64,000 nucleotides of DNA from Thiotrichales bacterium (GTDB taxonomy: Bacteria > Pseudomonadota > Gammaproteobacteria > Thiomicrospirales > Thiomicrospiraceae), in the NCBI GenBank assembly GCA_016938655.1, contig JAFGUG010000011.1, forward strand, positions 62,001-126,000. The letters run 5' to 3'. Positions 2,568 through 57,668 of this stretch are shown piece by piece. Within the stretch, counting starts at the first letter, position 1. Every line of letters begins with the position of its first letter. The notes below the pieces were generated by a model, which worked only from the letters and a program-made list of their open reading frames with translations, did not search any database and had not been told where the DNA came from. Position numbers and translations under genes: made by a program.

Positions 2568-2594
2568 ACCGAGCAGGCCTGCTCGGTTCTTTTG
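2568..2594. terminator. terminator built on the CAGGCCTG palindrome
   Basis: A perfect 20-bp palindrome (ACCGAG, then CAGGCCTG, then CTCGGT) at 2568-2587 followed by TCTTTTGTTTTT. It lies between the convergent methyltransferase and chemoreceptor genes, 35 bp past the first stop. The T-rich tract supports termination of the plus-strand gene. It contains copy 1 of the window-wide palindrome. Confidence 0.75.
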
Positions 2595-2656
2595 TTTTTA
2601 GCGTTTGTTAAAAAGTTTGTTATGACGCTTGTTAACGTTTATGCCGTTCCTTTTGA

Positions 2657-4612
2657 TTAATGCTTCGTTTTAAAGTTACCCAGCTTTTCAATCATTAAGT
2701 TGGCAGAGTCCAGAATGGACTTACTGGTTTCGCCAACTTGCTCAACCAGTGCGGCATTTTTCTGAACGGTTGAATCCATTTGAGAGACTGCACGGCCAAT
2801 TTCAGAGGCCGTAGTCGACTGTTCGCCAGAGCTCAGGGTGACTTGTGACACCATGTTTTTCATCTCTTGAATCGATTCTACAATTTGATTCAGTGAGTCG
2901 CCGGATTGTTCAGAAAGTTTGGCTCCGGTTGAGATTTCAGCCACCGATGCGGTAATGAGTTTTTTAATGTCATTTGCGGCATCCGATGAACGGCCCGCTA
3001 AATTACGCACTTCACTGGCAACCACCGCAAATCCACGCCCATGTTCGCCAGCTCTGGCCGCTTCAACCGCTGCGTTTAGGGCGAGTAGGTTGGTTTGGAA
3101 GGCGATGGAGTCGATGATGCTCACAATCTCTTCAATTTTTTGGCTGGAATCTTTAATGTTATGCATGCTGGTAATGGTCTTTTGCATGACCTCTGAACCA
3201 CCCGATGCAACATCACTGGTTTTAACCGCTAAATCATTGGCTAACTGTGTATTTTCGGTGTTCTGCTGAATGGTTGCGACCATCTCTTCCATGGCGGAAG
3301 CGGTCTCTTCAATCATAGCCGCAGACTCTTGAGTGCGTGAGGCCAAATCAATGTTGCCACTTGAGATATTGGTCACGCCATGGGTCACCACTTGGGCAAC
3401 TTGCATCACGTCATTCATGGCAACACGTTGTTTTTCGATGCTGGTGTTAAAGTTATCCACAAGTGTTTTAGCTTGGCCTTGCATTTGATTGTTAAGTTGA
3501 ATGGTTAGGTCGCCATCGGCCAGTTGTTGCATTGAATTATTAAGTAATTCAAACAGATGATTCAGTTCTGAAACCGCTTGGTTAATCGCCGATTTAATTG
3601 GTTTCCACTGACCTTTTACATCCGCTTGCACGGTGTTTGTAAAGTCAGATTTGGCTAAGCCATTCATTACATTCGAAATTTCAGTTAACGTGGTTTCCGT
3701 CTGTTGCATGGCACTGTTAACTTGGCCTCTAAGTGGCTCCGCAATGTGTTGCGGGAGTCGAGCAGTAAAGTCACCATGGCCAATCCCATCCATTAACGTT
3801 TTTAAGCTGCTCATGGTGTTGGTGACACTTTGTGCCGAATCGTTAACCGCTTGTTTAAGGGTGTCTAGATCGCCATGAAATTCGTGCTTAACCCGTTTGT
3901 CAAAATCGCCATGCGCAATCGCATTCATGACGCCATTAATTTCACTAAAAGCCGATTCAATTGAGGTTAAAAGCGTGTTGGTCGCAATCACCGAAGGGTG
4001 GGTTTGATGTTCGCTGATACGGCTTGAAAAGTCGGCGTTTTCAGAAACTTGGTTGATGGTGTTCATTACATTGTCGGCAACTTCTTCCTCTTTACGCATG
4101 GTGACCGAGTAATACACTAATACCGCGGCTTCAATGACCACAAACAGCGCGTGTAAGAAGGTAATGCCCCAGTTACAGTCGTAGTTAAAGAGAATAATTG
4201 GCATGCCCGCAACTTCAACCTGATTGAGTTGCAAGTAGGTCAATAGCACGTGATGCACAGCACCCACTCCGGCAGCGACGACCACGACCAGCCAATCTTT
4301 ATAAATCAGTAAGAACGCCAAAGCGACAAAGATGTGAAAGTGCATATCAATGCGTCCCATCTGCGTTTGGATGAGGGTGGCGGAGTAGAGCATAAAGAAC
4401 ACACCGCTTAAAATACCAAAGCCACGGCTGCCTCTGAGCAAAAAGTAACTGACCAACGATAAAACCGTAATAAGCACGGTCATGGAAATCGCAAAGTTAA
4501 AGGTGTCGTAACCAATTGGGGCTAAGAGCGCCACAAAGGGAATGTGTGCGAGTAAGATAAAAAGGACTTTTTTATCATTCGCCAATAGTCTTGGGTTTTT
4601 AGCGTTACTCAT
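2657..4612 (-). CDS. methyl-accepting chemotaxis protein with membrane-embedded N-terminus and poly-HAMP array
   Basis: A 651-residue chemoreceptor. Residues 15-170 form about six membrane segments with no large periplasmic domain and carry clustered histidines (MHFHIF near residue 94, VHH near 118, a later FLH). Residues about 190-395 contain at least four tandem HAMP-like units, each with an [AG]xGDF or [DS]DF/GDL core ([32 protein letters not shown]). The C-terminal third is the methyl-accepting signalling hairpin with the invariant tip [20 protein letters not shown]. There is no CheR-binding pentapeptide at the C-terminus. It probably senses an intracellular, membrane or redox signal, which is inference. 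It stands alone, some 32 kb from the cheD-cheA cluster. Confidence 0.9.
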
Positions 4613-4663
4613 GATCTCTCCTCAGGTCAGGCGCAGGGTGAAGCGTTTTGTTTTTTTACATAT

Positions 4664-55975: not shown

Positions 55976-56022
55976 GCTACTGTAACTAAAAGCTAAACCA
56001 AGCTCAGAAGGAATCGTTTTAA

Positions 56023-57066
56023 ATGGATGACAATAAGCAAAAAGCACTGGCCGCAGCATTAGGTCAAATTGAGAAACAATTTGGTAAAGGCTCGATCATG
56101 CGTATGGGCGACAGTGATGTGCCACGCGATATCGCTGCGATTTCAACCGGATCGCTGGGTTTGGATATGGCATTGGGCATAGGCGGTCTGCCTAAAGGGC
56201 GTGTTGTTGAAATTTACGGGCCGGAATCATCGGGTAAAACCACGCTGACCTTACACGCGATTGCTGAAGCGCAAAAGCTTGGCGGAACAGCCGCGTTTGT
56301 AGATGCGGAACACGCGTTAGACCCAATCTACGCAGAAAAATTGGGTGTCGATATTGATAACCTATTGGTTTCTCAGCCGGATACCGGTGAGCAAGCGTTG
56401 GAAATTACCGATGCGTTGGTGCGTTCAGGTGCGGTGGATATTGTGGTTATTGACTCGGTTGCCGCGCTTACACCAAAAGCGGAAATTGAAGGCGATATGG
56501 GTGATTCACACATGGGTCTGCAAGCGCGTTTAATGTCTCAAGCATTGCGTAAGTTAACGGCTAACATCAAGCGTACCAACACTTTAGTTATCTTTATTAA
56601 CCAGATTCGTATGAAAATTGGTGTGATGTTTGGTAGCCCAGAAACCACTACGGGTGGTAACGCGTTGAAGTTCTACGCCTCTGTGCGTTTGGACATTCGT
56701 CGTATCGGTGCCATTAAAAAAGGCGATGAGATTTTAGGAAACGAAACCCGCGTTAAAGTGGTTAAGAACAAAGTTGCGCCGCCGTTTAAACAAGTTGAGT
56801 TTGATATTCTTTATGGCCAAGGTATTTCCCGTGAAGGTGAAATCATTGACTTGGGTGTGAAAGAGAAGCTGATTGATAAATCGGGGTCTTGGTACGCTTA
56901 CAATGGTCAGAAGATTGGTCAAGGTAAAGACAATGTACGCACCTTTTTAATCGAAAATCCAGAGATTGCCGAGACCTTAATGGCGCAGATTAAAGAGATT
57001 ATGATGCCAGCCAAAGTGGTAAAAGCAAAAAAAGAAGAGCCGGTTGCTGAAGACGCCGCTGAGTAA
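56023..57066 (+). CDS. recA: recombinase RecA
   Basis: 347 residues, normal length. Walker [11 protein letters not shown] near residue 66, the MAW-type segment with [15 protein letters not shown] strand ([19 protein letters not shown]), loop L1 and L2 region [21 protein letters not shown], and a C-terminal acidic/lysine-rich tail ([17 protein letters not shown]). It coats single-stranded DNA for strand exchange and triggers the SOS response. The ribosome binding site is GAAGGA. recX follows after two bases. Confidence 0.97.
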
Positions 57067-57068
57067 CT

Positions 57069-57668
57069 TTGAAACGCGCCGAAGACTTTATTGAACAACT
57101 CAAACAAGCGGGTGCATTGAACGATGCATCGGCTTTTGAGGTTGGCAAGTCTGAAGCGCAAACCGATTCTGAAAAAGCAGTTGAACATCTGTTTAAACAG
57201 ATCGAGTCCCGAGCGGTCATGTTGTTAGCCATACGTGAACACGGTGCCAAAGAGCTCAAAACCAAATTAATTAGCAAGTTTCCAGAAACGCCTGAGCTGT
57301 TAACGGAAACCCAAGAACCGGCAGGCCTGGTTAAAAGCTTGATTGATGATGTGATTGAGCTTTGCCAAAGCAATAACTGGCAAAGTGATGAGCGTTATCT
57401 AGAGCAAGCCGTGCGCAGTATGATGGACAAAGGCCAAGGGCCGATGAAAATCCGCCAGAAATGTCAGCAGGCCTGCCAAGATTCAAGTTTGATCGATGCT
57501 TACTTGGATATTGAACCTCAAGAGTGGTTAGCGGTTGCGCGTGATGTCATGATGAAAAAGTATGGCGACTTGAGCAGGCCTGCTAATCGAAATGAACAAG
57601 CCAAGCGCATGCGTTTTCTGCAAAGCCGAGGGTTCTCATCTGAGGTGGTGTGGAAGGTGTTTCGTTGA
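57069..57668 (+). CDS. recX: regulatory protein RecX
   Basis: 199 residues with the RecX helical repeats: LLAIREHGAKELKTKLISKF, MMDKGQGPMKIRQKCQQA, MKKYGDLSRPANRNEQAKRMRFLQSRGFS read in parts. RecX caps RecA filaments. The start is TTG at 57069, three bases behind the recA stop, with no separate ribosome binding site, so it depends on recA translation. The gene carries three CAGGCCTG copies, at 57322, 57468 and 57575, in three different reading frames. The N-terminal 40 residues are family-variable. Confidence 0.92.
   Translation: MKRAEDFIEQLKQAGALNDASAFEVGKSEAQTDSEKAVEHLFKQIESRAVMLLAIREHGAKELKTKLISKFPETPELLTETQEPAGLVKSLIDDVIELCQSNNWQSDERYLEQAVRSMMDKGQGPMKIRQKCQQACQDSSLIDAYLDIEPQEWLAVARDVMMKKYGDLSRPANRNEQAKRMRFLQSRGFSSEVVWKVFR
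57322..57329. repeat. CAGGCCTG palindrome inside recX (1)
   Basis: Read as P-A-G-L-V (frame GGC-CTG). Confidence 0.9.
57468..57475. repeat. CAGGCCTG palindrome inside recX (2)
   Basis: Read as C-Q-Q-A-C-Q (frame CAG-GCC-TGC). Confidence 0.9.
57575..57582. repeat. CAGGCCTG palindrome inside recX (3)
   Basis: Read as L-S-R-P-A-N (frame AGG-CCT-GCT), within the full 12-bp AGCAGGCCTGCT. Confidence 0.9.

Follow-up and report, generated by a model that had tools for sequence, protein, structure and literature searches.

Dialects of a putative DNA uptake signal in genomes of the Thiomicrospiraceae

RESULTS AND DISCUSSION

Copies of CAGGCCTG in the window

The DNA analyzed here is a 64-kb stretch of a Thiotrichales bacterium (GenBank assembly GCA_016938655.1, contig JAFGUG010000011.1, positions 62,001 to 126,000; hereafter the window), and this report concerns an octameric palindrome, CAGGCCTG, that is scattered through it. 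Genes were positioned with a simple gene caller written for the analysis and not taken from an annotation. The copies of CAGGCCTG, in window positions, are as follows.

2574-2581, unstranded, gap between two stops
5713-5720, unstranded, gap, stop 38 bp away
5732-5739, unstranded, gap, stop 19 bp away
6659-6666, unstranded, gap
6708-6715, unstranded, gap
7985-7992, unstranded, coding (gene at 7903-8547, minus strand)
10588-10595, unstranded, coding (gene at 9919-11124, minus strand)
15707-15714, unstranded, gap
18737-18744, unstranded, coding
20419-20426, unstranded, gap
23125-23132, unstranded, gap between two stops
24119-24126, unstranded, gap
25039-25046, unstranded, gap, stop 20 bp away
26463-26470, unstranded, gap
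30107-30114, unstranded, gap between two stops, center of the palindrome at 30095-30126
31595-31602, unstranded, coding
37578-37585, unstranded, coding (CheA-like gene at 37508-39598 with Hpt, HATPase, and CheW domains)
39402-39409, unstranded, coding (the same CheA-like gene, 37508-39598)
41417-41424, unstranded, gap
43421-43428, unstranded, gap, 17 bp 3' of the stop of an Hsp90 gene
43483-43490, unstranded, gap
52407-52414, unstranded, gap, 38 bp 3' of the mutS stop
53341-53348, unstranded, coding (mutS)
54493-54500, unstranded, coding (mutS)
57322-57329, unstranded, coding (recX)
57468-57475, unstranded, coding (recX)
57575-57582, unstranded, coding (recX)

A sequence-only reading had listed these 27 starts, and all 27 proved exact. 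In 100 dinucleotide shuffles, CAGGCCTG occurred 0.52 times on average and at most 4 times, in line with its estimate of fewer than one copy per window by chance. Sixteen of the 27 copies lie in gene gaps, which are indeed a small share of the window, 86% of which was called coding. The 32-bp palindrome at 30095-30126, with its one mismatched pair, was likewise found as described. Most copies had also been placed within 70 bp of a stop codon, but this holds for only 11 of the 27, all of them among the 16 gap copies. As for the extended form, said to be usual, the full 12-mer AGCAGGCCTGCT is present at 12 of the 27 copies, too few for that word, and GCAGGCCTGC is present at 16. At least two T at positions +6 to +8, or at least two A at −8 to −6, were found at 25 of the 27 copies. 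Two AT-rich parts had been called accessory and free of copies. Both lack CAGGCCTG, but the one at 57.6-64 kb is not simply accessory, as it begins with alaS and an aspartokinase gene, and zero copies across 6.4 kb are unremarkable at the genome-wide density. The other, at 21567-22736, encodes a Schlafen/AlbA_2 domain protein and is plausibly accessory.

Abundance in the genome and distribution in the family

The assembly (2.93 Mb in 108 contigs; 95.7% complete, 7.7% contamination) contains 1173 copies of CAGGCCTG and 2 of the reversed control word. In 400 kb of the contig, 175 copies were counted, compared with 4.4 expected from an order-2 model. Of these, 80 lie in gaps (1.60 per kb) and 95 in coding DNA (0.27 per kb). 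A frequency near the Markov expectation, or an equal density in coding and noncoding DNA produced by codon bias, had been named beforehand as outcomes that would undo the case for the word; neither was observed. Codon bias is no explanation because the coding density alone far exceeds expectation, and the coding copies occupy all three frames (30 in frame 0, 56 in frame 1, and 9 in frame 2). Copies occur about once per 2.5 kb, with near-random spacing (mean 2294, standard deviation 2124). The longest stretch without CAGGCCTG in the 400 kb (contig C63, ~180-12500; 12.3 kb, 38% GC) overlaps an operon resembling that of the mannose-sensitive hemagglutinin (MSHA) pilus.

The host genome is probably a Thiomicrorhabdus (Thiomicrospiraceae), as judged from its MutS, which among the best 80 of 594 candidate stretches showed 78% identity to Thiomicrorhabdus sp. 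zzn3 and 70% to T. heinhorstiae; the genus cluster g1 is most likely Thiomicrorhabdus as well. Among 60 genomes of the family, 31 have 236-1173 copies of CAGGCCTG and 29 have 0-74, and rich and poor genomes coexist within one genus. All nine g5 genomes are rich, and among the nine from g6, three are poor. Counts in 35 genomes from other families of the class were 0-222, the highest being that of G071, whose control count is 91. Genomes G095 and G096 stand outside these counts. The word is thus widespread in the family, and the mixture of rich and poor genomes means either that several lineages have lost or exchanged it or that it was acquired on more than one occasion.

Other dialects in relatives

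Low-count relatives were next surveyed for other words by k-mer counts, and a repeat-masked scan showed the words of G020 and G055. In G023, the word is another palindrome, ACCGGCCGGT: the form CCGGCCGG occurs 1217 times genome-wide, compared with 22 for the control, and 0-159 times in other genomes, the highest of which has a control count of 148. G020 and G004 share a one-sided word, ACCCGGCCTGTTGAGTTT, surveyed as ctACCCGGCCTGTTGAGTTT; with both strands summed, CCCGGCCTGT occurs 537 times in G020, 321 times in G004, and at most 16 times in each of the other 56 genomes. A second one-sided word, CCCCAACCTGGCAGATTTT, is shared by G055 and G057, where CCCAACCTGG occurs 364 and 400 times, compared with at most 7 in each of the other 56. 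Both one-sided words are non-palindromic and have a T-tract on one side only (the G020-type flanks being taken from G020 alone). The family thus has four dialects: CAGGCCTG, ACCGGCCGGT, ACCCGGCCTGTTGAGTTT, and CCCCAACCTGGCAGATTTT.

No such word was found in 200 kb each of G003 and G019 or in 33-40 kb each of G012, G013, G024, G026, G031, G037, G045, and G053, a call that leaves aside fainter candidates, for instance TGCTGCAGCA in G037. For G011 and G028, the label "none" in the tree means merely that CAGGCCTG is scarce. The surveys also gave other repeats. In 200 kb of G023 (C1:100001-300000; L111-L120), another palindrome, TTTCACGTGAAA, has 7 copies, compared with 0.04 expected, and is possibly the binding site of a putative regulator; TTCACGTGAA stands out likewise in G019. 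The corresponding 200 kb of G019 (C1:100001-300000; L141-L150) also contains a direct repeat, CRISPR-like by eye, whose 9- and 10-mers occur ~100 times each.

Core and flanks

We next counted copies that differ from the core by one base. In the 400 kb, 107 one-base neighbors were seen beside the 175 perfect copies, compared with 107.4 expected. Only one of the 12 one-base variants was raised (GAGGCCTG, 16 compared with 6.6 expected). In relatives, the observed and expected numbers were 145 and 162 (G017), 650 and 671 (G020), and 36 and 35.8 (G023). The core is therefore nearly all-or-none, its one-base neighbors showing no overall excess. In the 440-kb stretch of G020, TCGGCCTG, one base off that core, occurs 68 times, compared with 33.1 expected, and is perhaps a tolerated variant. 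As a small control, 22 kb of Aggregatibacter (L079) was searched with what we take to be the core of the Pasteurellaceae uptake signal sequence (USS); 14 perfect copies were found, with 6 one-off copies compared with 7.1 expected, and the flank, AAAAGTGCGGTCAaTTTTT, was laid out as in the genomes studied here.

The aligned flanks of the 175 copies give AAAnTnAGCAGGCCTGCTnAnTTT. A T-tract lies 3' of the core at a fixed spacing in the host genome, G017, G020, G023, G055, and G057, and it was also seen in small samples from g6 (8 sites, including one G095 locus), g3 (2 sites), and L001 (6 sites). The tract is present in coding copies as well: the T fraction at +6 to +8 was 0.52 in the host genome (background, 0.28), 0.52 in G017 (0.26), 0.47 in G020 (0.23), and 0.49 in G023 (0.29). 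Flanks form sub-dialects among species with CAGGCCTG, namely GCAGGCCTGC in the host genome, ACAGGCCTGT in G017, and, in small samples, ACCAGGCCTGGT in other groups. No second AT segment was seen up to 16 bases from the core, and a scan of viral contigs for a 20-base form gave no match.

Turnover at orthologous sites

The host genome and G017 are 72% identical where they align. Of the coding sites that aligned, 20 of 51 host sites were intact in G017 and 21 of 39 G017 sites were intact in the host, compared with 8-9% for random 8-mers; coding sites without an alignment (44 of 95 and 31 of 70, respectively) stand outside these counts. One-off states were few (6 and 3). Among aligned coding sites that were not intact, a gap occurred in only 4 of 31 and 1 of 18, which indicates that sites come and go by substitution and not by insertion.

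G020 behaved differently, keeping intact only 3 of 58 aligned G017 sites and none of 46 aligned host sites. Its one-off states were exactly the core of its own dialect, CCGGCCTG/CAGGCCGG, in 17 of 25 cases seen from G017 and 12 of 16 seen from the host; such same-site replacement is a result for G020 alone. A tree was built from MutS alone, with 3 outgroup rows and 30 members of the family, and several of its forks are open. In it, G020 and G004 form a sister pair (100/100) that falls within species using CAGGCCTG (fork with G005, 99/97). G055 and G057 are sister to G053, in a nine-member group whose other members include CAGGCCTG species. Because of this nesting and the same-site replacement of the core, the one-sided word of G020 most likely arose from CAGGCCTG, with one half changed at existing sites. 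Separately, mutS matches in G031 (C3:13377-15955) come in several pieces with in-frame TGA codons, which may reflect decay of the gene or faulty assembly.

Gene ends, orientation, and methyltransferases

The sequence-only reading had left open whether the word acts in DNA uptake, as a methyltransferase or nucleoid-protein site, or in 3'-end processing, and had named HIP1, the uptake sequences of Neisseria and the Pasteurellaceae, and REP elements as comparable families. In the host genome, 77 of the 80 gap copies could be assigned to a gap class, and density was highest in convergent gaps (3.41 per kb), followed by tandem (1.52) and divergent gaps (0.86). Among tandem-gap copies, 35 of 48 are nearer the stop, and arms extending at least 6 bp beyond the core were found in 19 of 80 gap copies, compared with 8 of 95 coding copies. 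The gap classes rank alike in G023, though just 12 of 22 copies are nearer the stop there. This placement is what an intrinsic terminator or a REP-like repeat at 3' ends would give. However, 95 of the 175 host copies are coding, and sites arise by substitution and not by insertion. In G020, 6-bp arms occur in 1 of 68 gap copies and the copies have mixed orientation towards genes, in a hairpin set that is diluted (chance alone gives 41 of the 175 8-mers under the order-2 model). In G055, a perfect stem of at least 6 within 42 nt was found in 2 of 35 sites, compared with 8.8% of 500 random stretches. Since the one-sided dialects show no hairpins beyond chance and occur in both orientations, REP activity or 3'-end processing is very improbable as the maintained function.

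A recombination hotspot like Chi would also be short, over-represented, and present within coding DNA, but a palindrome has no orientation, and the one-sided dialects show no strong orientation bias. Over 440 kb of G020, where GC skew is negative in all ten bins, CCGGCCTGT occurs 60 times forward and 55 times in reverse, and 20 coding copies lie on the gene strand and 35 on the opposite strand. The bare 8-mer CCGGCCTG (101 forward, 74 reverse) has a mild bias at most, and the G055 dialect is divided 18 to 17 by strand. We therefore give a Chi-like role almost no credence.

HIP1 of cyanobacteria is, like CAGGCCTG, an octameric GC palindrome found genome-wide and sporadically swapped for another GC palindrome in some relatives (PMC4390886). 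A comparable word here would be made or kept by an orphan DNA methyltransferase with linked mismatch repair, and HIP1 is tied to cognate methyltransferases in most, not all, genomes (PMC4390886). We compared 30 CAGGCCTG-rich with 21 other genomes, a table that covers PF00145 and PF01555 only; the five genomes with other dialects, the two uncounted ones, and the adenine and type I families stand outside it. The curated cut-off was passed by C5 methyltransferases (PF00145) in 9 of the 30 rich genomes and 9 of the 21 others, and by N4/N6 methyltransferases (PF01555) in 10 and 7, respectively. Fifteen of the 30 rich genomes have neither, nor does G023 with its alternate palindrome. As these genes do not track the word, a C5 or N4/N6 cause is disfavored. 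Moreover, the dialects of G020/G004 and G055/G057 are non-palindromic, the words here have a T-tract flank, and one-off copies, common for HIP1 (PMC4390886), are not enriched. A HIP1-like origin thus appears improbable.

The word as a candidate uptake signal

These features suggest that CAGGCCTG is likely to be the core of an uptake-signal-like sequence of the Thiomicrospiraceae, with AAAnTnAGCAGGCCTGCTnAnTTT as the dialect of the host genome. The observations behind this interpretation are the massive excess of the word, its near all-or-none core, the T-tracts of most sampled genomes (g5 excepted), the origin of sites by substitution, the four dialects, and the switch between them. Among the functions named at the outset, uptake is therefore favored, and REP activity, 3'-end processing, and C5 or N4/N6 methyltransferases are disfavored. 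What we infer is a receptor, a bias in uptake, and a drive. In this scheme, the competence machinery would include a receptor on the cell surface that binds DNA bearing the word, and DNA of the same species would thereby be taken up preferentially and recombined. Because fragments with the perfect word would be favored, biased recombination would multiply perfect copies at all sites where the encoded protein permits them, and above all in gaps. If the taste of the receptor changed in a lineage, copies would be rewritten in place to a new dialect. Palindromes at gene ends could double as terminators, a side use.

In the sequence features examined, this putative signal resembles the USS of the Pasteurellaceae, except for the g5 flank; membership is not claimed. 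Those signals (Haemophilus influenzae type [Hin], AAGTGCGGT; Actinobacillus pleuropneumoniae type [Apl], ACAAGCGGT) also number about a thousand copies in coding and noncoding DNA. They, too, have a core of strong consensus in which single mismatches are rare, an AT-rich sequence or T-tract 3' of the core (here in most genomes sampled), an origin by substitution, and clade dialects (PMC1626085). Strong consensus has been called a shared oddity of USS and of the DNA uptake sequences (DUS) of the Neisseriaceae (PMC1626085). By contrast, the core is unrelated to that of USS, is palindromic in most motif-bearing genomes, occurs about once per 2.5 kb, and showed no second AT segment within 16 bases. 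DUS likewise form dialect families, some of which are one base apart, and Simonsiella muelleri has overlapping dyad-symmetric DUS pairs (PMC3630211). However, DUS have no flanking motif (PMC1626085), and their receptor, ComP, is known (PMC3868556), whereas none was found here; for USS, ComN/PpdA is a predicted receptor (PMC12616744).

Several observations weigh against uptake. The density is lower than the ~1 per kb quoted for USS and DUS (PMC1626085). One-off DUS outnumber perfect ones in Neisseria (PMC3630211), which shows that uptake sequences do not always have an all-or-none core. The T-tract is missing in g5 (0.23 at +6 to +8; 15 sites) and weaker (0.41) in 38 sites from eight other rich g1 genomes; both samples count against a universal flank. 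In a search of 58 genomes, ComEC was found in all 30 CAGGCCTG-rich ones, which speaks for uptake, but in 54 overall, with no match in G031 and the drafts G004, G044, and G048. It does not discriminate, because motif-less genomes have ComEC as well. G004 (520 contigs, 92% complete), which bears a dialect, gave no match to ComEC or a secretin, and the rich draft G009 gave no match to a secretin. No secretin in the 58 genomes passed the PilQ cut-off (TIGR02515), a model that matches several secretin classes and whose cut-off was passed by only 1 of 14 control genomes; weaker matches were found in 53 genomes and none in 5. The GspH/FimT-type family PF12019 was found in 3 of the 58 genomes, all low in CAGGCCTG, and was of no help as a receptor marker. 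No receptor candidate stood out, as PF07963 pilins were found in each of the 25 genomes searched, whether or not they bear the motif. Searches of the literature on Thiomicrospira, Hydrogenovibrio, Thiomicrorhabdus, and Piscirickettsia gave no report of competence or uptake, most subscription papers lying outside their scope, and the partial texts of PMC1852404 and PMC5217627 do not name Thiomicrospira. In PMC6501319, which mentions Thiomicrorhabdus, the single palindrome match is the written-out form of CRISPR.

The common pilin gene, which by eye we take to be MSHA-like, occurs in genomes with and without the motif; two g5 genomes gave a different pilin. At the start of contig C63 (L201, 279-8175), an MSHA-like operon encodes an AAA protein, a secretin, a TPR protein, an MshEN/T2SSE ATPase, and T2SSF, and it is a possible route of DNA uptake. 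The competence machinery neither proves nor refutes uptake.

The same absences, of an uptake receptor, of a PilQ-grade secretin, and of a ComEC match in the dialect-bearing draft G004, would suit a protein inside the cell, acting on the nucleoid, in segregation, or in repair, whose sites are kept at a rough density and co-evolve with it. A palindromic core suggests a dimer, and any co-evolving binder would suffice for dialects. However, regulatory sites usually follow a relaxed consensus (PMC1626085), unlike a core without one-off copies, two of the dialects are non-palindromic, and the near-absence of the word in close relatives is hard to reconcile with a role in chromosome maintenance. We regard an intracellular binder as unlikely, though it deserves serious consideration.

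Other features of the window

Two genes of the window, at 23241-23867 and 63045-63632, end in a C-terminal PEP-CTERM motif, a sorting signal that generally goes with an exosortase.

Implications

Uptake sequences have been described for the Pasteurellaceae and Neisseriaceae (PMC7811141 and PMC1939737). To our knowledge, these two families are the main well-established cases. We lean, if only slightly, towards the view that specificity for the uptake of self-DNA arose once more, in the free-living, sulfur-oxidizing Thiomicrospiraceae, with a signal of two half-sites, often palindromic, in which each half has its own T-tract and may change independently. Such changes would let lineages pass from a palindrome through a one-sided signal to another palindrome. 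If this is correct, a two-half-site signal would point to a receptor that is symmetric or dimeric. Uptake sequences have been stated to be non-palindromic (PMC1939737), although inverted USS pairs in terminators are known (a 1992 paper cited in PMC1852404), so palindromic dialects would alter the view of how receptors read uptake signals. The orthologous sites would then have caught a dialect switch in the act. Free-living chemolithoautotrophs whose relatives use four dialects or none would offer a comparative test of whether bias drives the signal, and the dialects could guide a search for the receptor by co-variation.

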